Source: Acholoe squamosa
Taxonomy: Eukaryota; Annelida; Polychaeta; Phyllodocida; Polynoidae
Assembly: GCA_949317995.1 (NCBI GenBank)
Contig: OX439036.1
Location: 106,805,669 to 106,869,668 of the forward strand
Direction of reading: 5' to 3'
DNA length: 64,000 nucleotides
Made by a program: the position numbers and the translations under genes. Shown piece after piece: positions 2,577 through 63,431 of the stretch (position 1 is its first letter; each line of letters opens with the position of its first letter). The notes under the pieces were generated by a model that was not told where the DNA came from, did not search any database, and saw only the letters and a list, made by a program, of their open reading frames with translations.

Positions 2577-3029
2577 CTGGTGTTCCGTTATACTGTGTAT
2601 ATAATTGCATTGTCCTAAGTAGACACAAGGTATTCTTGTTAATTTTATGTTTTATTTATATTATTCCAATTTCTATAATTTCAGGTGAGTAACGGTTGCC
2701 ATGGAGACGGCATGACTTTGACAAAGGATCAGGTTGGTCTTACACATGCTTGATGAAACCCCTTTATAAAGGGAAGGTATAACCACTCTCGTGGCATATT
2801 GGTGCATCACGATCATCATAAATGAGCATGAAGCAAAGTTGCATGTCTTGTCATTCTCATTGGGTTTTAAGATTGAGAATAGAGCACATGCCTTGTATTT
2901 TAGGTCATGCCCATCTTTCGGTAGGACTATAGGACTGTGTAGTCAGATTGGCACAAAGCCAACTCGGTCAGCATGCCCTGTCTACCAGGGCCCCACCACA
3001 ATGCCCAACGGGGTTAACCTCCAATTTAA

Positions 3030-3322
3030 CCCTTCCATGTCCATCATTTGCTATCTTGATGCAGTAATAAGAGTCATGGGGAGTAACTCGGCGGCACCAT
3101 TTCACTGCATCACCATCCTAAACCATAGGCCTGATGCATTGATCCACAATTTCCTAGCTCCAAGATTTCCTAGCTGGAAGTTGGTGCTGTACTCGTGCAT
3201 CATGGCAACAAATTGATGCATTGATGCATCGTGACACCAAAGTGCTGCATTGATGCATCATGACAATGCATCATGACAATAATAGGGCATGATGCCTTCA
3301 GGCATGATGCCGCCTGAAGAGG
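3030..3322. mobile_element. Two-hairpin (TTAA) MITE, degraded copy
   Basis: The stretch is flanked by TTAA (3026-3029 and 3323-3326) and is rich in the family motifs GATGCATCATG and TGATGCATTGATGCATC. The internal hairpins are scrambled and partly replaced by short duplications of TGATGCATCATGACA. Confidence 0.5.
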
Positions 3323-3326
3323 TTAA

Positions 3327-8068: not shown

Positions 8069-9160
8069 AGAGATACAAATTTTAAGAATTCGCCTATAGG
8101 CTTACCCAGATTTCCTTTCTTGGACCAAAGCTTTGGAGAAATTTACAATGATTTGAGAAAGTTTATAGATTTGTATTTTCAGAATTATTAACACACCCTT
8201 ACTTAAATCATTGAATATTCATGACGCATAAATGCAGCTCTGGTGAGTTTCCTGCCAGACAAAAGATGAGCATAAGGCAGTGGGGTAGGCAGCACCTAGG
8301 AGGCTAAGTGTCTACTGGGGTGCTGGAGAAGGCATTGGGTATCAGTGGGTTGGTGGGGGGGGGTGGAGGAGGGGTTGTAGGGGTAAGAGAGGTGTGAAGG
8401 CACTTGAGTCTTTGTGAGTAGATTACCATTTTGATGGCTTTATGAGTGGTTCAGTCTCCCAGGGGGATGAGCTATGATGAACATGTCTACTTGTATGTAG
8501 GTCACACAGCGAGCTTCTCACAGCCTTATAGAGCAGCTCCCTCAGTTCCAGCTGTTTATGCCCTTTCACATGTTCCTAGATCATTAGAAAGGGCTGCTCT
8601 ACTCACTACAACTGCGTCCCCTTCATGACGTTCTTCGGAATGGCCGCAGACTTCATATTGGTTTGAGAACAGGTTTTCAGCTGCTTGGTGGAGGGCAGAA
8701 CTCCCAACCATTGCCTTAGTTAATGAAAATAGCTAACATAGACTCAGTTATTAGAGCCAATTAATACATATCGACCTTCAGTAGGATTTTTATCTCTTAT
8801 TAGATGGAGTACACACCTAGTAGGATAGGCTGACCCAGGCTATCAAACTGGTATTGATAAGAAAATAAACTCCAAAATTAGCATTGATAAACAAGAGGAA
8901 TTCAGAATGAATAGGAATGGGACCCCAACCTTTCCTATCTAAATCCGGCACTGCAGCAAGGATACCACAGGGGTAGGATGGTATATATAAGCTCCTTGAC
9001 TGTATCCTCTGCCGCCTCATGGTATATATAAGCTCCTTGACTGTATCCTCTGCCGCCTCAGTTGCCTCCAGACCTTCCACTGCTCATAATCCAATTCATT
9101 ACCCTATAACTGCCCTAAAATCCGGCCCCAGACTCCCCCTTATCACACCCTCATCCCTAA
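8069..9160. other. Non-coding stretch with a 41-bp tandem duplication
   Basis: No gene recognised. A segment containing GGTATATATAAGCTCC is directly repeated at 8978-9018 and 9019-9059 (period 41). It resembles two TATA boxes, but I see no transcription unit attached. A CTAAATCCGGCACTGC end of the CAGTGGCGGAT-type family lies at about 8938. Confidence 0.5.
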
Positions 9161-9390
9161 CCATCAAGGGGCTCCTGATGCAGGAGTGCATCATGCCCAT
9201 TGGTCGGCATGATGCACCAATGAAGTGCTAGTGAGACTGCTTGCCAGCACGTCATTGGAGCATCATGCCGACCCTCTGGGAGTGTATCGATTCGATAGGG
9301 TCAGCATGATGCATGAGTGCAGCCCTGACATTCATGCATCATGATGACCATTGGATATGACGCATTAATGAATCGGTGGCCCTCAAAGGG
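9161..9390 (+). mobile_element. Two-hairpin MITE, nearly full length
   Basis: Shows the left end, GGAGTGCATCATGCCCATT, the first hairpin (core AAGTGCTAGTGAGACTGCTT), a middle palindrome (CCGACCCTCTGGGAG), a shortened second hairpin, and a right end GGCCCTCAAAGGG. The flanking TTAA has decayed on both sides. Confidence 0.8.
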
Positions 9391-12645: not shown

Positions 12646-13116
12646 ATCCCCCAAGCCGTGATGTGAAGTAATATAGAGGGACGGGGAGTCGTGATGCATC
12701 ACAGGGCGCGTGTTAAAATGGGAGCCAATATTTGGTGTAGGGATGAAGTAAAGTAAGAGTCCTGCTCCCTCCACTGTCACAGTGATGGATCACGTGACGT
12801 GCTGGTAGAGGGAGTGGTGTGTGAGGGGGAGGTGCAGGAGATTGGGGGGGGTGAGGGGCACTCAGATAAGATGAGAATAGGGAAGCCACCAGAGATAGCC
12901 TGCACTTAGTATTATAATTATTATTATTATTAGAAAAATAGCAACTGCAAATGATATTGAGCACTTGTCACATCTTTCAGTTCCATTTGGCAGTAGTTAA
13001 AACATATAAATTGTAAGGGCTTTAACACCCCTTTTTTTCTTTAGGCCTATAGTATATTTCATGGTTAATCTCTGGCTGCATCTTATGGTTATGGCATGGC
13101 AAGCGAAGGCGCTTAA

Positions 13117-13342
13117 CCTCATGAGGGCCGCTGATGCATTAATGCATCATGCCCATTGGTCGTCATGATGCACCAATGAAGTGCTGGCAAGACTACTTGC
13201 CAGCACTTCATTGGAATATCATGCTGACCCTTCGGGAGTGTATGTATCAACCCCGTAGGGTCGGCATGATGCTCCAATGAAGTCTCGTCACCACTTCATT
13301 CATGCATCATGATGCATTCCTGCATCAGCGGCCTTTGAAGGT
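13117..13342 (+). mobile_element. Two-hairpin MITE, full length
   Basis: Flanked by TTAA on both sides (13113-13116 and 13343-13346). It has the left terminus GAGGGCCGCTGATGCATTAA, a first hairpin around AAGTGCTGGCAAGACTACTT, a middle segment with GGGAGTGTATG, a second hairpin of the same GAAGT type (shortened), and a right end GCATCAGCGGCC. Confidence 0.88.
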
Positions 13343-13794
13343 TTAAGGAGAGGAGGGGTTGTAGGCAGGAGTACAAATGAGGACCTGACTGAATGGAGAA
13401 ATGACCAGGACAGCTAGAAGCCTAAGGGGGCAAGTGAGCAGGGAAGTTACCAGAAGCATTCATATTGATACACTATTCTACCCTAAAGGGCTCAAAGAGA
13501 TAACAACTAGTGACACAGACAGAAGAGGCAGAGTTAGTTTGTGAGTTAAGGTTGAGTAGGATTGATGTAGCTACTGCGTGCTGTCTGAATACTGAACAGC
13601 TTAGAATTGGGGTATGGGCTGCTGCTTAAAGACCACATATCAGGATGGAGGGAATTTATCCAAACCGAATGATTATTCACGAGTAAGCATCAAAGCCGCC
13701 TTTGGAGAAACAGAACCGAGTCAACTGCTTGTAGGCTAACAAGTGAAAAGAATTTCAGTTTGTAGCAATTCAATTGAATCCTAATATTTTTTGC

Positions 13795-18821: not shown

Positions 18822-20030
18822 TCTAGGACAAATGGCCACCTGGACCAGGGGCCTACGGACAAATGGCCACCAGGATCTTTAGCCCGCTGACAAACAGCCC
18901 ACGGACAAATAGCCCATGGACAAATGGCCCATGGACAAATGGCCCCTGGGACTGGGAGCCCCCAGGACAGGAGGCCCTTTTTTTCTCGCGTCTATCATCT
19001 TTACACGTCAGATTACCTCTATTCTATTCTTATACCCATCAGATATCCTATTCTGTGCCCACCAGATCCATCGCCCCCTTTACCCGCTAGTTCTCTTACC
19101 CATTAGACAGGTTTTGTCTCATGCCCGCTAGATTCTATCGCCCGCTACATGATTCTTTACAGATATCAGATGTATTCTATGCCTGCTAGATTCTAACATC
19201 TGTCAGATTTTGATTCTACGCCTACTAGATTCAACCCTCCGTCAGATTTCCATACTTGATGTATATCAGATCTATCCTATACCCTCTAGATTCTACCCAC
19301 CATCAGATTTTCATTGTACCCCGTAAGATTCTAACCTCCTTCATATTTTGATTCTACGCCCACTAGATTCTACCCTTTTCAGAATAATCTAGTGGGCGAT
19401 ATGATCTAGTGGGCGATATGATTTAGCGGGCGATAGAATCTAGCGGGCGATAGAATCTAGCGGGCATGAGACAAAACCTGTCTGACGGGTAACATAAACT
19501 AGCAGGTAAAGAATCATATAGCGGGCGATGGAATCTGATGATCATCTGACAACAGTTATAACCTAGCGGGCATTGAATAAAAAATCTGATGGAGGTTAGA
19601 ATCTAGTCGGTGTAGAATCGAAATCTGAAGGAGGTTAGAATCTAGTGGGCATGCAATCAAAATCTGATGGAGTTTAGAATCTAATGGGCATAGAATCAAA
19701 ATCTGACAGAGATTAGAATCTAGCAGGTGTAGGGTACATCTTGTATTTAAAAAGTATAGAAATCTGACAGAGATTAGAATCTAGTAGATGTAGAATGAAA
19801 ATCTAGTGGATACAAGACTGAATAGAGATAACTGTCGGGCATTAGACAATAATTGAGATAATCTAGTGGGTTTAGGCTGACGGGCGTTATAAAGAATGGC
19901 CTCTGGTCCTGGTGGCCATTTGTCCATGGGCTTCTTGGCCGGTGGCCATAAATCCTGAGGGATGTTCATCTGAGGGCCTCTCATCCTAGGGCCTCTGGCC
20001 AGGGGGCTACCAATCAAGGGGGGCCGTTTG
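18822..20030. mobile_element. Large foldback element built of short repeats
   Basis: The left part (GGACAAATGGCCACCTGGAC, then many TAGATTCTA and GTCAGATTT units) is mirrored by the right part (AATCTGAYGGAG, TTAGAATCTAG, then GGTGGCCATTTGTCC). The symmetry centre is near 19380. The right arm holds direct repeats of about 39 bp (AAATCTGATGGAGG plus TTAGAATCTAGTGGGCAT). The terminal segment repeats GGACAAATGGCC. No transposase ORF is present. This architecture resembles Foldback-type elements with repetitive arms; the exact ends are uncertain. Confidence 0.6.
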
Positions 20031-21268: not shown

Positions 21269-21707
21269 CATATACTACATACAGTTACACACATTGACTC
21301 ATACACAGAGTGTCTGTTTCAGGTCACCTGATGCAGTATACCTACCCAATATACTACTTACAGATGGAAAGCATAAAAGAAAGTTTATGTTACAGATAAC
21401 ATGGTTAAAGATATTAGGTAGGGTAGGTTAAATGTCACAGAAAGATGAGAATTGGCCCCAAAACATAACCATCCCCACTTCAGTACCGCATCAACTGAAC
21501 ATGGATCTATGAGGCACCATGTAACATGACAGGGTTAAACAAAGTTCTTTCCTATCCAGATTAAGTTATAACCCATCTAGATTAAGTCCCCACCCCCCAC
21601 CAACCGTGTTTCAGCACCTAACAGGTTATTTGTAGTGTTTGTTGTACACACACAGTGATGGACATGACTATTTTCACAACCCACTACCACAACATGTTCA
21701 GAATTAA

Positions 21708-21956
21708 CCCTTGAAGGGCCGCTGATGTAGGAGTGCATCATGCCGATTGATCGTCATGATGCACCAGTGAAGTGAGACTGCATGCCAGCACTTCATTGGT
21801 GCATCATACTGACCCTGTGCGGTTGATACATAAACTCCCGGAGGGTCGGCATGATTCTCCAATGAAGTGCTGGTGAGCAGTCTCGCCAGTACTTCATTGG
21901 TGCATCATGACGACCAATGGGCATGATGCAGTAATTCATCATTAGCCCTCAAAGGG
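21708..21956 (+). mobile_element. Two-hairpin MITE, reference copy
   Basis: The termini are CCCTTGAAGGGCCGCTGATG and AGCCCTCAAAGGG, with TTAA on both sides (21704-21707 and 21957-21960). TTAA target duplications and CCC...GGG ends are typical of piggyBac-type elements. The first hairpin centres on TGAAGTGAGACTGCATGCCA, a middle palindrome contains CCCGGAGGGTCGGC, and the second centres on GCTGGTGAGCAGTCTCGCC. At 249 bp it has no ORF and must have been moved by an enzyme from elsewhere. Confidence 0.9.
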
Positions 21957-22104
21957 TTAACGATCCTCACCTCTTCTGAACTTCAGCTCAGCCCCACCAC
22001 TGCCATATGCCAATTACCATGCCTAGAACAAATCCCCTCCCACAATCTCTAAAGTGCTCCTCACTGCATTTGGCCAACATTCATACCCAGAGAGATCCTC
22101 CTCA

Positions 22105-30955: not shown

Positions 30956-31025
30956 TAGGATATTAGTATTTCTGTGACTGAACTGGAACCTGCATGGAGG
31001 CACCCCGCCACCATCAAATGGTTAA

Positions 31026-34000
31026 CCCTTTAAGGACTGCTAAGTCAGGGAGTGCATTATGCCAATCAGTTGTCCTTAGGCTGGGAGTGCATCATGCCTA
31101 TTGGTTGTCCTCAGGCTGGGAGTGCATCATGCCCATTGGTTGTCCTCAGGCTGGGAGTGCATCATGCCCATTTGTTGTCCTAAGGCTGGGAGTGCATCAT
31201 GCCCATTGGTTGTCATAAGGCTGGGAGTGCATCATGCCCATTGGTTGTCCTAAGGCTGGGAGTGCATCATGCCCATTGGTTGTCCTAAGGCTGGGAGTGC
31301 ATCATGCCCATTGGTTGTCCTAAGGCTGGGAGTGCATCATGCCCATCGGTTGTCCTAAGGCTGGGAGTGCATCATGCCCATTGGTTGTCCTTAGGCTGGG
31401 AGTGCATCATGCCCATTGGTTGTCCTAAGGCTGGGAGTGCATCATGCCCATTGGTTGTCCTTAGGCTGGGAGTTCATCATGCCCATTGGTTGTCCTAAGG
31501 CTGGGAGTGCATCATGCCCATCGGTTGTCCTTAGGCTGGGAGTGCATCATGCCCATTGGTTGTCCTTAGGCTGGGAGTGCATCATGCCCATTGGTTGTCC
31601 TTAGGCTGGGAGTGCATCATGCCCATTGGTTGTCCTAAGGCTGGGAGTGCATCATGCCCATTGGTTGTCCTAAGGCTGGGAGTGCATCATGCCCATTGGT
31701 TGTCCTAAGTCTGGGAGTGCATCATGCCCATTGGTTGTCCTCAGGCTGTGAGTGCATCATGCCCATTGGTTGTCCTAAGGCTGGGAGTGCATCATGCCCA
31801 TTGGTTGTCCTAAGGCTGGGAGTGCATCATGCCCATTGGTTGTCCTTAGGCTGGGAGTGCATCATGCCCATTGGTTGTCCTTAGGCTGGGAGTGCATCAT
31901 GCCCATTGGTTGTCCTTAGGCCAGGAGTGCATCATGCCCATTGGTTGTCCTCAGGCTGGGAGTGCATCATGCCCATTGGTTGTCCTAAGGCTGTGAGTGC
32001 ATCATGCCCATTGGTTGTCCTTAGGCTGGGAGTGCATCATGCCCATTGGTTGTCCTAAGGCTGGGAGTGCATCATGCCCATTGGTTGTCATAAGGCTGGG
32101 AGTGCATCATGCCCATCGGTTGTCCTTAGGCTGGGAGTGCATCATGCCCATTGGTTGTCCTAAGGCTGGGAGTGCATCATGCCCATTGGTTGTCCTTAGG
32201 CTGGGAGTGCATCATGCCCATTGGTTGTCCTAAGGCTGGGAGTGCATCATGCCCATTGGTTGTCCTCAGGCTGTGAGTGCATCATGCCCATTGGTTGTCC
32301 TAAGGCTGGGAGTGCATCATGCCCATTGGTTGTCCTAAGGCTGGGAGTGCATCATGCCCATTGGTTGTCCTTAGGCTGGGAGTGCATCATGCCCATTGGT
32401 TGTCCTTAGGCTGGGAGTGCATCATGCCCATTGGTTGTCCTTAGGCCAGGAGTGCATCATGCCCATTGGTTGTCCTCAGGCTGGGAGTGCATCATGCCCA
32501 TTGGTTGTCCTAAGGCTGTGAGTGCATCATGCCCATTGGTTGTCCTTAGGCTGGGAGTGCATCATGCCCATTGGTTGTCCTAAGGCTGGGAGTGCATCAT
32601 GCCCATTGGTTGTCATAAGGCTGGGAGTGCATCATGCCCATCGGTTGTCCTTAGGCTGGGAGTGCATCATGCCCATTGGTTGTCCTAAGGCTGTGAGTGC
32701 ATCATGCCCATTGGTTGTCCTTAGGCTGGGAGTGCATCATGCCCATTGGTTGTCCTAAGGCTGGGAGTGCATCATGCCCATTGGTTGTCATAAGGCTGGG
32801 AGTGCATCATGCCCATCGGTTGTCCTTAGGCTGGGAGTGCATCATGCCCATTGGTTGTCCTAAGGCTGGGAGTGCATCATGCCCATTGGTTGTCCTTAGG
32901 CTGGGAGTGCATCATGCCCATTGGTTGTCCTAAGGCTGGGAGTGCATCATGCCCATTGGTTGTCCTCAGACTGGGAGTGCATCATGCCCATTGGTTGTCC
33001 TAAGGCTGGGAGTGCATCATGCCCATTGGTTGTCCTCAGGCTGGGAGTGCATCATGCCCATTTGTTGTCCTAAGGCTGGGAGTGCATCATGCCCATTGGT
33101 TGTCATAAGGCTGGGAGTGCATCATGCCCATTGGTTGTCCTAAGGCTGGGAGTGCATCATGCCCATTGGTTGTCCTAAGGCTGGGAGTGCATCATGCCCA
33201 TTGGTTGTCCTAAGGCTGGGAGTGCATCATGCCCATTGGTTGTCCTAAGGCTGGGAGTGCATCATGCCCATTGGTTGTCCTTAGGCTGGGAGTGCATCAT
33301 GCCCATTGGTTGTCCTAAGGCTGGGAGTGCATCATGCCCATTGGTTGTCCTAAGGCTGGGAGTGCATCATGCCCATTGGTTGTCCTTAGGCTGGGAGTGC
33401 ATCATGCCCATTGGTTGTCCTTAGGCTGGGAGTGCATCATGCCCATTGGTTGTCCTAAGGCTGGGAGTGCATCATGCCCATTGGTTGTCCTAAGGCTGGG
33501 AGTGCATCATGCCCGTTTTTTGTCATAAGGCTGGGAGTGCATCATGCCCATTGGTTGTCCTAAGGCTGGGAGTGCATCATGCCCATTGGTTGTCCTAAGG
33601 CTGGGAGTGCATCATGCCCATTGGTTGTCCTAAGGCTGGGAGTGCATCATGCCCGTTTTTTGTCATAAGGCTGGGAGTGCATCATGCCCATTGGTTGTCC
33701 TAAGGCTGGGAGTGCATCATGCCCATTGGTTGTCCTAAGGCTGGGAGTGCATCATGCCCATTGGTTGTCCTAAGTCTGGGAGTGCATCATGCCCATTGGT
33801 TGTCCTCAGGCTGTGAGTGCATCATGCCCATTGGTTGTCCTAAGGCTGGGAGTGCATCATGCCCATTGGTTGTCCTAAGGCTGGGAGTGCATCATGCCCA
33901 TTGGTTGTCCTTAGGCTGGGAGTGCATCATGCCCATTGGTTGTCCTTAGGCTGGGAGTGCATCATGCCCATTGGTTGTCCTTAGGCCAGGAGTGCATCAT

Positions 34001-34824
34001 GCCCATTGGTTGTCCTCAGGCTGGGAGTGCATCATGCCCATTGGTTGTCCTAAGGCTGTGAGTGCATCATGCCCATTGGTTGTCCTTAGGCTGGGAGTGC
34101 ATCATGCCCATTGGTTGTCCTAAGGCTGGGAGTGCATCATGCCCATTGGTTGTCATAAGGCTGGGAGTGCATCATGCCCATTGGTTGTCCTAAGGCTGGG
34201 AGTGCATCATGCCCATTGGTTGTCCTAAGGCTGGGAGTGCATCATGTCCATTGGTTGTCCTAAGGCTGGGAGTGCATCATGCCCATTGGTTGTCCTAAGG
34301 CTGGGAGTGCATCATGCCCATTGGTTGTCCTAAGGCTGGGAGTGCATCATGCCCATTGGTTGTCATAAGGCTGGGAGTGCATCATGCCCATTGGTTGTCC
34401 TTAGGCTGGGAGTGCATCATGCCCATTGGTTGTCCTTAGGCTGGGAGTGCATCATGCCCATTGGTTGTCATAAGGCTGGGAGTGCATCATGCCCATTTGT
34501 TGTCCTTAGGCTGGGAGTGCATCATGCCCATTGGTTGTCCTAAGGCTGGGAGTGCATCATGCCCATTGGTTTTCCTTAGGCTGGGAGTGCATCATGCCCA
34601 TCGGTTGTCCTAAGGCTGGGAGTGCATCATGCCCATTGGTTGTCATGATGCTCAAATGAAGTGCTGGCAAGCAGAATCAATAGAGCATCATGCCGACCTA
34701 TCACCCCTGAAGGGTCGACATGATGCATGAATGTAGCCTTGGCATGTTAATCGCCAGGGCTACATTCATGTATCATGCCGACCAATGGGCATGATGCATT
34801 AATGCATTAGCCGCCCTCAAAGGA
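31026..34824 (+). mobile_element. Two-hairpin MITE enlarged by an internal satellite
   Basis: TTAA flanks both sides (31022-31025 and 34825-34828). The left end is CCCTTTAAGGACTGC. After the array, the normal family body follows without a break: ATGATGCTCAAATGAAGTGC, a middle CCCCTGAAGGGTCGAC, the AGCCTTGGCATGTTAATCGC hairpin and the right end GCCGCCCTCAAAGG. Without 102 of the 103 repeat units the element would be about 229 bp, the usual length. The array therefore arose inside an existing element. Confidence 0.9.
31040..34644 (+). repeat. 35-bp tandem array, exactly 103 units
   Basis: The unit is AGTGCATCATGCCCATTGGT followed by TGTCCTAAGGCTGGG. Starts fall every 35 bp over 3605 bp with no net indel at the positions checked. 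The first, most divergent unit (31040-31074, CTAAGTCAGGGAGTGCATTA) is the element's own subterminal segment. Units vary mainly at CCTAAGG / CCTTAGG / CCTCAGG / CATAAGG. Higher-order blocks exist: the rare TCAGGCTGTG variant recurs at 31741, 32266 and 33806, and TTAGGCCAGG recurs in step. There are no unique spacers, so it is not a CRISPR array. Frames broken by TAA or TAG in most units argue against coding. Confidence 0.97.
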
Positions 34825-34828
34825 TTAA

Positions 34829-39665: not shown

Positions 39666-40404
39666 TTCTAAGAATGTTCCCTGTTCAAATGACTAGAACT
39701 GAAATATCATGGACATGGCTTCTATAGACCTGACATGTAGTAGACGTGACATGGTCGGCCCTTACTATTGCAGCCACCGTAGTGCGGGACGCCCTCACTA
39801 GGGGCGTAACGTGATTGGTACAGACAGGGAGTAATGGACGTCATTCACTGTTAGAGAATTCTGGAATTGCATGGGAAAGAGATTGGGTGGGTGGGGTGGG
39901 ATGGGGCTTGCACTCATTTATCCTAAGGCCAGATAATGGTGAACCTAAAATATGTACTAGGAAAGGGGCCCTTATTCCCCCCTGCACTAAGGGCCTTTTT
40001 CGCAGATCGTGTCACGAAATATCTAAGCGTTTCACCGTTCTTTCTCTTCCCAAAGAACTAAAGGACACAACCCTGTGTGGGAGACCTCTATCCATGTATA
40101 CTTATATTATATCAGGTTTTCATTTTGTAATAAAGTGTCTCGTTTTGAATGGGAATTGCCAATATAATGATGGAAAATGTGTAATTTCCCTCCCATGCTT
40201 TAACCCTGTGTTTCCCAAATATAGTGCTATACCACTGCATATATGTGCAGTATAGGCAGATAAAGAGTTAATATGAAGACAGCAGTCCTGTTGTCATAGC
40301 AGGACTTTTTCTATATGACGGTGTGTTGGTAGGAGTGAAGTACCATATGACGGGGTCCTACGTTACCATCTGTGGAGGTAAATAGGTAGGAATGACCAGG
40401 GTAG
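39666..40404. other. Non-coding stretch with one long unassigned frame
   Basis: A 146-codon plus-strand frame (39815-40255) starts from TTG, shows no recognisable domain and has no supporting splice or promoter signals, so I do not call it a gene. Confidence 0.35.
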
Positions 40405-40947
40405 AGTAGCCTGATGGTAGAGTAGCCTGATGGTAGAGTAGCCTGATGGTAGAGTAGCCTGATGGTGGAGTAGCCTGATGGTAGAGTAGCCTGATGGTGG
40501 AGTAGCCTGATGGTAGAGTAGCCTGATGGTAGAGTAGCCTGATGGTAGAGTAGCCTGATGGTAGAGTAGCCTGATGGTAGAGTAGCCTGATGGTAGAGTA
40601 GCCTGATGGTAGAGTAGCCTGATGGTAGAGTAGCCTGATGGTGGAGTAGCCTGATGGTAGAGTAGCCTGATGGTGGAGTAGCCTGATGGTAGAGTAGCCT
40701 GATGATAGAGTAGCCTGATGGTGGAGTAGCCTGATGGTGGAGTAGCCTGATGGTGGAGTAGCCTGATGGTGGAGTAGCCTGATGGTAGAGTAGCCTGATG
40801 GTGGAGTAGCCTGATGGTGGAGTAGCCTGATGGTAGAGTAGCCTGATGGTGGAGTAGCCTGATGGTAGAGTAGCCTGATGGTGGAGTAGCCTGATGGTGG
40901 AGTAGCCTGATGGTAGAGTAGCCTGATGGTAGAGTAGCCTGATGGTA
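40405..40947. repeat. 16-bp minisatellite, 34 units
   Basis: The unit is AGTAGCCTGATGGTAG, with a GTAGAG / GTGGAG single-base variant, in exact 16-bp phase from 40405 to the last partial unit at 40933. The complementary strand lacks stop codons in all three frames, which explains two minus-strand ORFs of 201 and 205 codons with a 16-residue period. I regard these as by-products. Confidence 0.95.
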
Positions 40948-41023: not shown

Positions 41024-41233
41024 CCCTTCAAAGACAACATATTGCCTTTATGTCGTCATGATGCACCAATGTAGTGCTGGCGAGTAACCCACTGACTGGA
41101 TCTGAATTTGATACCAGTGATCACAGTGATTGGAATGTATTAATCACATACACTGACATAATGCATGGATATATTCTCATCATGACAACCAATGGGCATG
41201 ATGCATTAATGTACTATGCAATCCCCATAAGGT
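41024..41233 (+). mobile_element. Two-hairpin MITE, diverged
   Basis: Keeps CCCTTCAAAG, CGTCATGATGCACCAATG, GTGCTGGCGAGTAACCCACT and GGGCATGATGCATTAATG, and ends AAGG followed by TTTAA. Confidence 0.65.
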
Positions 41234-41237
41234 TTAA

Positions 41238-42154
41238 GTAGACAGGACCCCATGGGTAGGTAAATAGATACACTTGTACCTAGTGCCATATATAGGCACT
41301 AGTGACTGCTACAATGTCCCTGAACTTTGCACTCTTCAACCCTATGTTTCAGACTAGAAAATTAAAACCTATGCTTGAAGAGTGAGCAGTATTTCCAGTT
41401 CCTGCCTACTTATGAGTGAGGCATAGTGGGAATGAAATTAGTGTTCTCCCACCAGACCTTTCTGCTTTCTATACTGCTTCCTGTATGGTGGTTCCCTGAG
41501 GGTTTATAGCTCAGGGCACCAGAGTAGTAAATAGAGAGAAATGATCATGTTTAGGGTAAAGTAATGGTAGGTTATGGGGTACATGGAGATGGGGGATCCA
41601 TAAGGTAGACCAGGCGGGATGGTAGTGAGTGGGGCATTACTGTAATGATGCCAGATTTACCGTGCATTAGGTATGTAGGGGCCAGGATTAGGCATATAGA
41701 GGAGGTGACTGTGGGAGGAGGGTCGTTGGGTCCTCGTATTCAGATATAGGTACTTGGGCCAATTCTTTGTAGGAATTCATGTTTTACCACGATTAATATA
41801 AACCTCAAAAGGTAATTAGAACCAAAATCCTACTTTCTCGTTGAGCTGATAATCATTTATAGCTGATAATAGGGATGGAATGCATCTCTTTGGGGGGGGG
41901 GGATGTAAAAAAGAAAGAAAAAGGGGGTGTCTATATAATGTACACCCACAGAAGGTAGTCAGAGAGGGTCTGGGGCTAGCTGCAACAGTCAAGTAAATGT
42001 AGGAAAGGGCCAGAAGGAGGTATTGAGGTGAGTAATAGCCTTGGTCTAGACACACAGGGATTGAGAGTATGGGGTAGTAGATGGGGGTGGAGTGGGATGA
42101 AGGTTGGCCTGGCCATCTTCCATCCAGTAAGCATGTCCCACTCCCTCACCTTAA
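41238..42154. other. Non-coding stretch, nothing recognised
   Basis: Contains a G-run near 41883. No gene recognised. Confidence 0.4.
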
Positions 42155-42394
42155 ACCTTTAAGGGCTACTGATACATTAATGCATAATGCCAATAGGTCG
42201 ACAAGATGCAACAATGAAGTTCTAGTGAGACTGCTCACCAGCACTTCATTGGAGCATCATGCCGACCCACCAGGAATACATGTATCAACTCTGTGGGGTC
42301 AGCATGATGCTCAAATGAACTGCTGGCAAGCAGTCTCACCAGCACTTCATTGGTGCATCATGACAACTGATGGGCATGATGCACTCTTAAAGGT
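42155..42394 (+). mobile_element. Two-hairpin MITE, nearly full length
   Basis: TTAA precedes it. Both hairpins are of the GAAGT type (TCTAGTGAGACTGCTCACCA and TGCTGGCAAGCAGTCTCACC). The right terminus is shortened (CACTCTTAAAGG). Confidence 0.82.
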
Positions 42395-43900: not shown

Positions 43901-44718
43901 GTAGGTGTCGGTGTGGACGTTGGGTGGGTAGGTGGGGGGGGGGGTCCTTACTACCAGAACTTAGTTAAGGTCTTCTCATATACTTAAGGGTGTAAAACAC
44001 ACATAAACCCAACCAGACACAGTCAAATTCAATTTAAAGTTGCATTTATTGCAGTTGTTACAACAATGGATATGTAGAATTAATTGTTTAACATGTAGCA
44101 ACCAACGTTTTGCCTTTGTTCAAAGGTCTTCATCAGGACATCAGAAAATAATACCAGTTCCCACACAATTGAATTGAAACAAGCTGTGATCGCTGTACAA
44201 GAGTCACATGTCCTGCTTTTGCTAGATAATTATTCTCGCCTTCTGAAACTTGGCAAATATTGAGGAATGGATCCAACATTTGAGAAAGGAGGGAGCGCGG
44301 CTCAACAATATGGGTGTATCCCCTATTTTTGAGTAAATGTTGCATTCTAAAATAAACTGCTCTTAATTCCGAATGACATGGAGTGTGGCCATAAGGTGAA
44401 GGACGACCGCCGCCATATTGCTCTTACTGCCCCCCCCCCCCACCATGACATCTATTACAATATTGCCTGTATAAGCGAAAGGGATATTGGGTATTGAAAT
44501 TTCAAAATATGTGTATTGAAATTTCGAGATACGTTATGATTCAAGTCTTGAAGCGGTGTGGGTATAGCCTGGTTGAAATTAATGACCGTGTGAGTGCATA
44601 TACATAGGCAAATACGTCAAGAAGACCAACGGACATGATGCACTCCTGCATCGGCTGCCGTTAAAAGGTTACTGACACGACGTGTGATGAGAAGGTGACA
44701 TGCCATGACATCTGATAA
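43901..44718. other. Non-coding stretch
   Basis: A right-end fragment of a two-hairpin MITE (GACATGATGCACTCCTGCAT) lies at about 44633-44665. A C-run is near 44431. No gene recognised. Confidence 0.4.
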
Positions 44719-44938
44719 CCCTTTAAGGGCCGTTAATGCATTCATGCATCATGCCCATTGGTCGTCATGATGCATGAATGCAGCCCTGGGGACTAACTCG
44801 CCAGGGCTGCATTCATGCATCACGCCCATTGGTCGTCATGATGCATGAATGCAGCCCTGGGGACTAACTCGCCAGGGCTGCATTTATGCATCATGACGAC
44901 CGTACAGGGTAGATACACTGATACACTCCCGGGGAGGG
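44719..44938 (+). mobile_element. Two-hairpin MITE with duplicated hairpin module
   Basis: The left end CCCTTTAAGGGCCGTTAATG is followed by two tandem 71-bp copies of one hairpin module, then a middle segment. The second terminus is missing. Confidence 0.85.
44753..44894 (+). repeat. 71-bp hairpin module, two tandem copies
   Basis: Copies at 44753-44823 and 44824-44894 are almost identical. Each carries GCCCATTGGTCGTCATGATG and AGCCCTGGGGACTAACTCGC with its complementary arm. Confidence 0.92.
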
Positions 44939-48367: not shown

Positions 48368-49542
48368 TTCAGGTCTTCTAGGTAGCGTGTCAAGTTGGAC
48401 TAGGAATGTGGGCCAATCAGAGTTTATAAGGGAAGGTTGGAGATCTCTTACCAATGCCTAGTTGATTCCTGATACAGGTATCCCTAACTAAATGTATAAG
48501 CCACACCTGGGGCTTGATATGCCATGTCCTATAATTCAGTACATGGAACCCTCGCCTATAATCCGCACCCTGAGTTTAGGAGGATTCTGTAAGCCACAGT
48601 AGACTCTGAAATGGCCTACAAGCCATGGCTTATACACGTGTCTTTCATTATTGAACCCTTTTATGATCGTGGGAACTCAGAGATTACACCTTTCCTTCCA
48701 TTGCAAGAACTACTTCTTTCTCTGTGGGAACTGTTTTACATACCAAACACTGACCAGGATTTTCTACTTTCCCTTAGCGAGGGACTGTCACCTCTGGGTC
48801 AGGGTCGGAGAGTCAGGGTTGCTACATAGCGTTAGGGGAGGAGACTGGGGAATTGGGACATTGTAGGGAGGGGGCGGGGGAACTATACGTGGCAGATATA
48901 GGATGATGATAGGGAGGGGGATATACAGTACCAAGACATGCACGTCACGCATGTCTCCAGGTATCTTGTCATACCTGTACAGTCAAGGGGACTGGAAGGA
49001 TATTTTTTTTTTTTTTTTTGGGGGGGGGGGGCTGTCAGCATATATCAATGTAGCATGGGTCTGATGATGGTCACTTAAATCTCACATTGCACAGGGGAGC
49101 CTTGCCATATTCTCATCTCCCCTATAAGCTGTATTTGATGTTCTGTATGATATGAATATTGAGGGATCTGGGAAGAGTTATTGAAGAATCAGCAGATAAT
49201 ATTGACAAAACAACAAACTTTCCACACTGACGGATTTTGAAAATCATAAAATTAACTACTGTCAAAATGGGGGAGGGGCACATCCCCCCACGCCTGGTCC
49301 ATCTAAACCAGAGGTGAAGAGCTATCAATATCAAGCTATATAGCTATAGTCTTTCCAAAGATGCATTAGTTTTACCAGAAATAGGAATTCATTTCTCTTT
49401 CTGGTAACACTGATGCATCTTATTATTATTTATGGGTTTTCATCTAATTTGATGGTAAACACTACTCTTTCTGGCACATATTCAATCAACAGCATTTCCT
49501 AAACAACCTCCCTAATATCTTCTCTCTTTCCTCTTCTTTCAG
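48368..49542. other. Upstream flank or intron before the APC exon
   Basis: No exon recognised. A T17-G11-like homopolymer junction lies at about 49002-49031. A fragment of the GGCGGAT-type family (GGGGGAGGGGCACATCCCCC) lies near 49268. The final 40 bp are a strong pyrimidine tract ending in CAG, the splice acceptor for the next exon. Confidence 0.5.
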
Positions 49543-49552
49543 ACGTAAAGTG

Positions 49553-50318
49553 ATGTCGGCGGCATCATACGACGAGCTGCTGCGGCAGGTTGAGTCGCTC
49601 AAATCGGAAAATGGCGACCTCCGCAAAGAGCTGCAGGACAACTCGTCCCACCTCTCCAAACTGGAAATGGAGGCTGGGACTATGCGAGATGTCCTGTCCA
49701 ACCTGCAGACCTCGATGGCGGATGACACTGACGGGAATTACGCCTTAAACCTCAGTTTTGAACAGGAGCAAAATGATGCTAAACAGAAGCAAGGGGATGT
49801 CAGGCACAAAGAGGTGCAGCAGAGCAATTTGCTGGAGCAGGGGAATGATTTGAATGATATGCAAGGCAATTTAAGCAACAGCCAGCAAGAGAGTCATCTC
49901 TTGCTAGGCAATTTCAAGCTGGAACAAGGCAATGTGCTCTTGCAAGGCAATGCTAGCCAGCAGCAAGGCAACAATGACCAGCAAGGCAATGTCCAGCAGC
50001 AGGATAGCAATTTCCTGCAAGGCAACAACTTTCAGCAAGCTAATGAAGCCCTGCAAGGCAATAATACCCTGCAAGGCAATTTCCAAAAGGGGAATGCTAA
50101 CCAGGAGGCTGGTAATAATGCCCTTCACCAGCAGCAGAATAGCACCACCCAGGGGCAGGGTACAGGTGGAGAGGGACAGGAGGCTAATAGGAGCATTCAC
50201 ATTAAGGCCCCTTCTAACAACACTGGACTCCTGCTCACATCTGGAGGACCTGAGGTACTGGAACTGGACCAGAACTCCAACACCAGTTTTACAGGCTCCA
50301 ACAGCAGTTTCGATGGAG
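49553..50318 (+). CDS. APC: APC, first coding exon (partial gene)
   Basis: This is the N-terminus of the adenomatous polyposis coli protein, a scaffold that promotes beta-catenin destruction in Wnt signalling and binds microtubules. The first residues (MSAASYDELLRQVESLKSEN) closely match vertebrate APC as I know it, and residues 5-52 form the dimerising coiled coil. The exon follows a TTTCTTTCAG acceptor (exon base 1 = 49543). I choose ATG 49553 over the preceding GTG because of that match. It ends at a GAG|GTGAGT donor after one base of codon 256, and the frame meets TAG just beyond, as expected inside an intron. Residues 60-205 are Gln/Asn/Gly-rich with about nine QGN triplets, which vertebrate APC does not have here. 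The vertebrate exon stops near residue 45. Armadillo and later domains lie outside the window. Confidence 0.92.
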
Positions 50319-50944
50319 GTGAGTAGAAATTACAAAGAATATTTCAATTCTCATCATTCTCTATGACTTTCTATTTCAGGAAGCAGATTTATAGATGAAA
50401 TTTAGCATTTTCCCATGGTTAGAAAATTGTATGAATCCCACAAGTAGCCTATCAGATCAGAAAGGGCAGAGGATACCGGGCAGAGTGATATATTCCGATG
50501 AGATTTTCAAGGAGATGCTTAGAACTCTTGTCGATGGGGAGCTGGATGTCTAAGATGTCAACATATTCTCTTCCTCTTACATCAAAATCAATACAACTTA
50601 ACAGCTGTAGGGGGAGAGTGATTGACTAGCAGCTAGGATGAGATACCTAATAGATGCAGGGCCTTCCACCTCGCCTTACCCTACCTGGGGCTAGAGTTCC
50701 CAGGATGCCCTTGGGCGGTAGGCACTCAATGAGCGATAAATGATGCATGTGTCCGGCAGTAGGAGGGACATAAGGTCAAGGTCACGGGGACACTTCCTGT
50801 CTCACATGTCAACCCTATAGTCCAGTCCCAGATAGGACTTAATGGGTAAGGGTCCTTACAGTGGCCAAAGAATATGTTGCACAGCAATTTGGATAATTAT
50901 TTTGGTATTAGCAAGCTTATTTGAATGAGATAGTGAGTGCCCAG

Positions 50945-51456: not shown

Positions 51457-51612
51457 CCCTTTAAGGGCAGCTGATGCAGGAGTGCATCTTGCCCATTGGT
51501 CGTCATGATACACCAATGAAGTGTTGTTAAGACTGTTCGCCCGCACTTCATTGTTGCATCACGGGAGTGTATCAATTCTGTAGGGTTGGCATGATGCATC
51601 AATGCATCAGCG
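51457..51612 (+). mobile_element. Two-hairpin MITE, internally shortened
   Basis: The left end is CCCTTTAAGGGCAGCTGATG and the first hairpin is present. The second is deleted, leaving TGATGCATCAATGCATCAGC as the right end. Confidence 0.75.
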
Positions 51613-61015: not shown

Positions 61016-62070
61016 AGCCACTCATATACTTGAATCATGCCTGAATGCAGCCCTGAAGAGTTGCTCACCAGCCCTGGTGTAAATGTATCATGACGACCAA
61101 TAGGCATATAGTGAATTAATGTACAAGCAGCCAATGACTATGATACACTCCTGTTTTAGTGGCCCAAAAAGGGTTTGAGGGTTCAATAATACGTCGGGCT
61201 GTCATAGCTGTCATGATACATGGCCAGGATTGCTTTCCTATACGGGGTTTTACATACCCACAGGGTCTATGACAGCGGTGTAGTGCGAGCAACTAAGAAA
61301 TTGGATCAAACATGAGACAACCCAATGGAAATAATGGAGCAATGCATCGACCTGGATCTTGATCGGCAATCAAAACATGAGGCGTCCATATGGAATCCAT
61401 ACTGTTCCTCAAACGTTCACATAAAGAACAGGGACCGCAGTTGTACATTGAGTCGAATCCAACATAAAAGGGTAGCCCGCCCTCTCTGTGGGCTCCATTA
61501 CTGGGTCTATCTTCATATGAACAGAACAAATCCTTCTGCCATTCTCTGTGTCTGTGAATAAAGAGCACTGTAAATCACCCTGCCTCTCTGTATTGAGCAA
61601 GCTATGGGTTGCATTGCATAGATCTCGAGGCTCCTCTGTGTGAGTGAGGGAGGGGGCAAGTTAGGGAGGGAGCAAGCAAGCAAGAGACCAAGCAGGCATG
61701 TGTGGAAAGGTGCGAGCAACTGAATGAGTGATTTCAGACATGCCACTTTTTTTTTTGGAATTCTTGCTAGAATTCCCTATAGGCATTTGAGAAAATTTGG
61801 ATAACAGTCGGATTTTCAGTGAATAATCTGTGACATCTCTGTTACTGGTTTTCATATTTATGGTGGGAAAACACAATAGATATCAGTTTGTGTCCGTGCT
61901 TGTGCACTCTGTGGTCTCTAAAGATTTCAAAATGATCAGACCAGTTGTGAGAAGAATTCACATAAAATCCAGGATGAAGTAAAGAAGAAAAAAAGGGGCC
62001 CAAACCCTGGTTGTTCCACAAATCAGAGGCTCACTTACACAGTGTAACAGGTGCGTGTAAAAACCCTTAA
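61016..62070. other. Intronic stretch with MITE fragments
   Basis: A decayed two-hairpin copy lies at about 61030-61180 (TGAATGCAGCCCTGAAGAG). No exon recognised; several overlapping short ORFs at 61290-61750 have no recognisable content. Confidence 0.4.
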
Positions 62071-62302
62071 CCCTTTATGGGCTGATAATGCATTAATGCA
62101 TCATGCCCACAGGTCATCATGATACACCAATGAAGTGCTGGCGAGTCTGCTCGCCAGCACTTCATTGGAGCATCATGACGACCCTCCGGGACTGCATCCA
62201 CCCTGTAAGGTCGCATTATGCATGATTGTAGCCCTGGTGAGTTACTCGCCAGGACTGCATTCATGCATCATGACGACCAGTGGGTAATGGGGCATTACAG
62301 GG
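62071..62302 (+). mobile_element. Two-hairpin MITE, full length
   Basis: TTAA on both sides (62067-62070 and 62303-62306). It contains both hairpin types, GTGCTGGCGAGTCTGCTCGC and AGCCCTGGTGAGTTACTCGC, in standard order. Confidence 0.88.
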
Positions 62303-62660
62303 TTAATGTGGGTAACATGCAAACCTCCCATCATGCATTGTGTTCACGTTTCCTGTACCAGCCGCTGGTTACGTCTTTTGGGGAGAAGCGCTAACGTGGC
62401 GCCATTTTCGCTTGTAAAATATGAGCAGTAGACTTTCACATTCCCACCGGAACCACTGACACACTTCCGATCATACCGTTTCTCCCCGAAAGGGTTCACG
62501 CCAGCCGCTAAGTGATCGCAGCTCCCCCTGGCGGAAATCAAGGCATCCATTTCTACTATTAAGGCCTACCAGTGCCACTGCAACTAGTGAGATATGACCA
62601 AGTGAAGACCCAATTCGTACCTATGTGTTCTCGGATTTAGTCTACAGATAAGTGTTCTAG

Positions 62661-63431
62661 ATGGCACTAGTTAATGTAGAATATCCCTGCGTCCACCCCA
62701 GGGAAGGTAAAGTCTTTTGGCAGGATAGATTTTGGACCAGTCAAATAATTCCCTTTATAGAAATGTACCTCTGGGTGTTTTGTCTGTGCCCACTGGGCAA
62801 TAGAGTTCACCCCTATAGACTTTGTCATTCTAAAGCGGTCTCAAGATTACCGGTTCCAAGATTATACATGGGTAACGCGCAACTCCCAGTTACTAATAGA
62901 GAATATGGCTACCTAGGTGTCGAACTAGATGGACCCCAGACCATCCAGCCACATATAATTAATATCAACAAATCATGCAAGCTGGCAAAAATCCGGAAGT
63001 TTACTGGGAAGGAAGACTGTCTCACAATTTATAAAAGCATGATTTGCCCCACCTTTGATTACTGCAGTTTCTATACTGGTGGAGGAAACAAGACAGAATT
63101 ACATATTTGCTGCAAGCTTCTGGTTAGGGGCAATGGCATTGAAGAGCTTCACCAAATGAATAATGTAGAAAAGCTTGAATCAAGACAGAAAAGACAACTA
63201 TTAACCCTGATGTGGAAAAGATCAAAGGATAATGCAAATCTACTTATTAGAGAGGTGAGGACAAGGGGAGATAGGAAGGTGCGTTTCAGAACCCGGCAAG
63301 GAAGAACATCATGCTACCAGAGAAGCCCGTTCCATGGGGGTGTAAAACTTTGGGATGAATTACCTGAAGGCCCACAAAAAAGCAAGACATTTGACATGTT
63401 CAAAAGGAACATCAGAATGTACATACAATAA
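62661..63431 (+). CDS. LINE reverse transcriptase, C-terminal part
   Basis: 256 codons without a stop. From residue 62 to the end it reads like the thumb and tail of a non-LTR retrotransposon reverse transcriptase: YLGVELD (84-90), then IYKSMICPTFDYCS (123-136), and the typical ending LWDELPEG...TFDMFKRN (230-250). The catalytic palm with its YADD-type motif is absent, and the first 60 residues are not recognised, so the element is 5'-truncated and the ATG at 62661 is not the natural start. I would place it near the CR1/jockey group, but the clade is uncertain. It lies in the same orientation as APC, inside its intron. The open frame suggests fairly recent insertion. The 3' end is not defined and no poly-A is seen. 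Confidence 0.8.
   Translation: MALVNVEYPCVHPREGKVFWQDRFWTSQIIPFIEMYLWVFCLCPLGNRVHPYRLCHSKAVSRLPVPRLYMGNAQLPVTNREYGYLGVELDGPQTIQPHIININKSCKLAKIRKFTGKEDCLTIYKSMICPTFDYCSFYTGGGNKTELHICCKLLVRGNGIEELHQMNNVEKLESRQKRQLLTLMWKRSKDNANLLIREVRTRGDRKVRFRTRQGRTSCYQRSPFHGGVKLWDELPEGPQKSKTFDMFKRNIRMYIQ

Follow-up and report, generated by a model that had tools for sequence, protein, structure and literature searches.

A 103-unit tandem array within a single TTAA-flanked, probably piggyBac-like MITE of Acholoe squamosa

Results

Structure of the locus

The DNA analysed here is a 64-kb stretch of the Acholoe squamosa genome, referred to below as the window. It is densely populated by a quasi-palindromic MITE family, one member of which (31026-34824) encloses a tandem array. 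The parts of this element, and two further family copies to which we return below, are the following:

31022..31025, no strand assigned: left TTAA flank (target site), read directly
31026..31039, plus strand: left terminus CCCTTTAAGGACTG, which aligns with other family ends
31040..31074, plus strand: unit 1, the element's own subterminal segment (in-register cut, shared states)
31075..34644, plus strand: units 2-103 of the 35-bp array, without indels (TRF, in-register cut)
34645..34824, plus strand: remainder of the element, which runs collinear with other copies of the family and includes the right terminus and the remaining hairpin
34713..34783, no strand assigned: remaining right-hand hairpin (arms 34713-34743 and 34753-34783)
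34825..34828, no strand assigned: right TTAA flank, read directly
9176..9216, plus strand: single native module in another family copy, with exact TGATGCA at both ends and 1 mismatch to the family module
44716..44905, no strand assigned: family copy with an unrecognisable right terminus and a 71-bp tandem duplication at 44737-44893 (TRF, nhmmer)

With TRF we obtained a single array, which spans 31040-34644 (period 35, 103.0 copies, 95% matches, 0% indels), and its score of 6566 rules out a chance origin. The preliminary description of this DNA, made from the letters alone, had counted 103 units of 35 bp in exact phase over the same interval, and both its coordinates and its counts are correct. 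When cut in register the units fall into 20 types, the commonest of which is the consensus unit CTAAGGCTGGGAGTGCATCATGCCCATTGGTTGTC (39 of 103 units). The largest divergence is that of unit 1, which differs from the consensus at 6 of 35 bases as compared with at most 3 in the other unit types. Unit 1 also has more rare variants (four) than any other unit, a rare variant being one found in no more than two units; such variants are present in 8 of the 103. Unit 103 is identical to the consensus and unit 101 has one rare variant; decay like that of unit 1 is absent from the right edge of the array.

The element measures 3799 bp, and subtracting 102 units of 35 bp leaves the 229-bp element that had been proposed. 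So collapsed, it is short, non-coding and flanked by TTAA, with 30 further matches in the window, as expected of a MITE, and its inverted termini are imperfect. Aligned with its own reverse complement, it has 65.9% matches over 217 columns. The arms of the right-hand foldback are 90% complementary, and the remaining part of the element (34645-34790) folds strongly (z -7.73). The array lies within intact element ends and its unit most likely derives from the element, which are the marks of a MITE-borne tandem array. The earlier view that termini, flanks and hairpin are those of the normal family holds for family membership, the TTAA sites and the foldback, but the two termini agree at only 10 of their first 14 bases and the flanks are atypically intact.

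Terminal sequences and superfamily

The left terminus reads TTAACCCTTTAAGG and the right one TTAATCCTTTGAGG, in which a T replaces the first C. The consensus of the other family ends is TTAACCCTTTAAGGGC and the family end motif is CCCTTTRAGGGC. The element thus combines a TTAA target with CCC...GGG termini, as piggyBac-like MITEs do, and its termini resemble those of published members of this group. According to excerpts of the published accounts, the termini of Acropora piggyBac-like elements and CMITEs include CCCTTTAAGCCCTA and CCCTTTAACGCCC (PMC2872659), and two piggyBac-like elements have TTAACCC at either end (PMC12324416). Kolobok elements are described, again in excerpt, by a TTAA target and a terminal RR, with AGGRR in T2 (PMC6004289). 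We rejected a Kolobok or T2-MITE assignment, since the termini here start with CCC and TCC. A Pfam scan of 15 of the 45 open reading frames listed in the window yielded no transposase.

The MITE family in the window

A search with the collapsed element (nhmmer, E <= 1e-6) returned 30 matches elsewhere in the 64-kb window. These overlap by at most about 20 bases, and at least one copy is split into two matches (44716-44824 and 44808-44917). An end search paired both TTAA ends in three other full-length matches (13113-13346, 21704-21960 and 62067-62306), and intact TTAA on both sides is the exception within the family. The consensus of 38 family end sequences, taken from the two ends of each of 19 copies or fragments and in some cases poorly aligned, starts with TTAACCCTTTAAGGGCCGCTGATGC.

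Other copies hold one module in the same place, at either end, in the form TGATGCA-GGAGTGCATCATGCCCATTGGTCGTCA-TGATGCA. Among the 8 fuzzy module matches listed, TGATGCA is exact at both ends in three (9176, 39650 and 35853); mismatches to the module number 1 at 9176 and 2 at 51472, and the listed match at 3307 belongs to a more distant element. The native module at 9158-9240 forms a hairpin whose stem has 11 pairs (z -2.70, equalled by 3 of 200 shuffles). A related-looking, TTAA-bounded element lies at about 3026-3326, with small tandem duplications (29 bp x 2.4 and 13 bp x 2.2) at 3196-3280.

The duplication at 44737-44893 comprises 2.2 copies with 97% matches and is bounded at both ends by TGCATTYATGCATCA, a common 15-bp direct repeat whose two instances are identical at 14 of 15 positions. 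This copy is an early-stage counterpart of the 103-unit array. Its duplication is independent and arose at a direct repeat, which makes it at least one further case of duplication at such a repeat in the family.

Origin of the unit

The first unit had been described as the element's own subterminal segment, and this is upheld by collinearity and by states that unit 1 and the array consensus have in common. Both have A at base 3 (found in 8 of the 27 other end rows with a base there), G at base 5 (only 1 of 28) and T at base 32 (3 of 34). Both also have an extra base, absent from all 38 other rows (in 28 of these the columns beside it contain letters); its exact placement is ambiguous, and row 37522 has a different, longer insertion close by. 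Past unit 103, the sequence runs on as in family copies. The sharing of states that are rare or absent in other copies indicates that the array most likely comes from the element's own end.

At five of the six bases that set unit 1 apart from the array consensus (6, 19, 25, 28 and 29), it is the array that shows the family state, which is the main point against this simple reading. The CA of unit 1 at 28-29 recurs in a copy ending near 42390, so that these two states may predate the array and need not reflect decay of unit 1. Taken together, the family states in the array and the recurrence of CA mean that the array units could come from another copy by conversion.

The family copy at 42152-42387 has CAGTTGTC in common with unit 1. 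It is possibly a nearer relative or a donor, though over its whole length it differs from the array element by 27.2%.

Timing and mode of growth

Against a consensus built from 12 other copies, the collapsed element shows 42 differences in 236 sites (17.8%), a figure that includes divergence acquired before insertion and therefore gives no insertion age. The 12 copies themselves lie 12.6 to 25% from their consensus, and the closest of these full-length copies is 23.7% from the array element. CpG is depleted in the window (o/e 0.33); since the element still differs from the consensus at 21 of 121 sites once CA, TG and CG sites are left out, CpG decay does not explain its divergence. The units, by comparison, differ from one another by a mean of 4.26% in pairwise comparisons (3.97% without unit 1, and 5.2% when the 19 sites that are not CA, TG or CG are considered). 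In a simulation of 103 independently ageing units, a pairwise difference of 4.25% is reached at 2.15% change per unit, and 17.8% change yields 31%. With units 4.3% apart in an element 17.8% from its consensus, the growth or homogenisation of the array is younger than the lineage of the element, although amplification may have preceded the last jump.

Long runs of units recur within the array: units 18-30 are identical to 77-89 (455 bp), 21-32 to 36-47 (420 bp) and 36-45 to 80-89 (350 bp). These runs of 13, 12 and 10 units overlap, so that all are copies of a single block; when the order of the units was shuffled 300 times, the longest identical run reached 9 at most (mean 5.0). At lags 15, 44 and 59 the mean unit difference falls to 0.033, 0.033 and 0.029 (the other lag classes examined gave 0.039-0.041), and it shows no increase with separation along the array. 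Identical blocks of 10 to 13 units suggest unequal exchange or a similar duplication of blocks.

The first base of the unit is C in 93 of 103 units and A in 10, and slippage between TGATGCA repeats predicts A. In addition, the array element's own left TGATGCA repeat is degraded, and just three of the eight listed modules keep both repeats exact. We therefore treat the first duplication step as hypothetical.

Other features of the window

The sole protein lead in the window is an exon for the APC N-terminal coiled coil: the open reading frame at 49448-50326 starts with this coiled coil (Pfam E 3.1e-21; PDB 1deb, E 5.7e-15) and continues into a QGN-rich low-complexity stretch. Together with the depletion of CpG, it gives the window the look of animal DNA. 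A protein search with this reading frame scored no match among 938 candidates, an outcome that length limits of the search may account for. A 256-aa open reading frame at 62661-63431, which we take to resemble the C-terminal part of a LINE reverse transcriptase, had no Pfam match at E <= 0.01. A second array, with a 16-bp unit repeated 34.2 times at 96% matches, occupies 40400-40947, about 80 bp from a family fragment (41031-41225); inspection by eye revealed no element ends around it. TRF consensus units also place clustered 38-39-bp repeats at 19163-19723, apparently in both orientations.

Discussion

We consider it likely that the 103-unit array grew in place, from one left subterminal module of a non-autonomous piggyBac-like MITE. 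The starting point would have been a piggyBac-like MITE with a TTAA target, CCCTTT ends, internal foldbacks and a single left subterminal module. Its first duplication may have occurred by replication slippage or template switching, of which slippage would be favoured by the direct repeats and the hairpin of the native module. Subsequent growth and homogenisation could then have proceeded through unequal exchange that did not reach unit 1 at the edge. The array itself is probably without function. A role as folded DNA or RNA is unlikely: the folding of three array units does not surpass that of shuffles (z +1.78), and the window had no Rfam match at gathering scores.

The array might instead have been present already in the source element, brought by transposition as in Xmix/Xstir and homogenised later. 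MITE families whose members hold variable arrays are indeed described in excerpts of PMC9659126 and PMC12628747. We nevertheless think this scenario unlikely, as the closest of the 12 full-length copies compared is almost a quarter different from the array element and no second site with two adjacent units was found in the window, a very small sample. When the remainder of the window was scanned without gaps for two adjacent units, the best site had 30 mismatches in 70. Outside the window, the exact 29-base core had 0 matches in viral contigs and 0 in prokaryotic genome contigs, and 34500-34828 had no match among plasmids; with collections of these kinds, the absence of matches says little.

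Long identical blocks are of the kind that assemblers mishandle. The blocks of 455, 420 and 350 bp could accordingly have been expanded or collapsed, making the length of the array partly an artefact of assembly. This concerns the count of units and fits the other readings too. We regard it as improbable, and an array that is artificial throughout is unlikely, given that 20 types of unit occur in mixed order. Less probable still is that the array was born elsewhere or in another copy and was moved in by template switching or gene conversion: the family states at the five bases where unit 1 lacks them speak for such a move, but unit 1 and the array have four states in common and the right junction passes directly into family sequence.

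The preliminary description had a mobile element seeding a satellite in place. Growth in place is retained here, on the evidence of the common states, the collinearity and the young units. The accompanying idea that the unit could spread with the element gains no support in the window. The word satellite is generous: satellite DNA is recognised by long arrays, many or heterochromatic loci and concerted evolution, and what we see is one 3.6-kb locus with homogenised units, for which minisatellite-like array is the safer term. Nor is the route from transposon to satellite new, as excerpts of PMC9659126 and PMC12628747 already review it. Besides listing arrays carried by MITEs, they present the models put forward by Hikosaka and Kawahara and by Scalvenzi and Pollet; microhomology at the edges of the unit is among the ideas included.

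Excerpts of the literature provide several parallels. Xmix of Xenopus (Hikosaka and Kawahara, 2004, via PMC6004289, PMC9659126 and PMC12628747) is a TTAA T2-MITE whose amplified internal segment represents the large repeat family Xstir (PMC6004289). Like the element described here, it is a TTAA-targeting MITE with an internal or TIR segment amplified in tandem; unlike it, Xmix is of the T2/Kolobok type with terminal AGGRR and gave rise to a large repeat family, whereas we see one locus. The miDNA4 MITE and satellite of Xenopus tropicalis (Scalvenzi and Pollet, 2014, via PMC9659126 and PMC12628747) likewise have a variable array grown from a single monomer inside a MITE, and direct repeats of at least 5 bp beside the unit were proposed as the trigger. 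That element is a Tc1/mariner type, and its authors are said to suggest that it captured a pre-existing repeat, whereas the unit here is the element's own subterminal sequence.

Tetris TIR-220 of Drosophila virilis is a foldback element with TIR-derived tandem repeats, the longer arrays reaching 66 copies, for which unequal crossing-over was proposed. It differs in its unit of about 220 bp, its target duplications of 8-10 bp, its beta-heterochromatic location and its long arrays, which are mostly separate from structurally complete copies (PMC4079207, in excerpt). BrickBuilt of Porphyromonas gingivalis has a 23-nt minisatellite of 1 to 22.8 units in a MITE, but is bacterial and has fewer units (PMC4596501, in excerpt). 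The Acropora CMITEs and piggyBac-like elements have the CCCTTT termini, such as CCCTTTAAGCCCTA, but are about 100 bp long, and the excerpts mention no internal array (PMC2872659). In Aedes aegypti it is whole piggyBac elements that form large tandem arrays (named in a reference of PMC2872659), a different thing. A limited literature search over titles and the beginnings of abstracts named no published array in a piggyBac-type MITE.

With Xmix/Xstir, miDNA4 and Tetris published, the array described here adds to a known kind whose principle is already established. The specimen is unusually clean: one window contains the element's ends, still in position, a seed unit that can be recognised, a long array with homogenised units and relatives that have a single module. 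It also makes the order of events readable: the lineage of the element is old and the amplification came later. As a probable piggyBac-type case, it joins the Kolobok-type and Tc1/mariner-type examples.

More tentatively, the palindromic ends of the family could be a recurrent generator of satellites, their repeats and hairpins leading to independent in-place duplications in many copies. Two family copies (at 31040 and 44737) have tandem duplications within this one 64-kb window. We think this doubtful as a general property of the family; if true, the genome would hold a staged series of arrays, from 2 to over 100 units.
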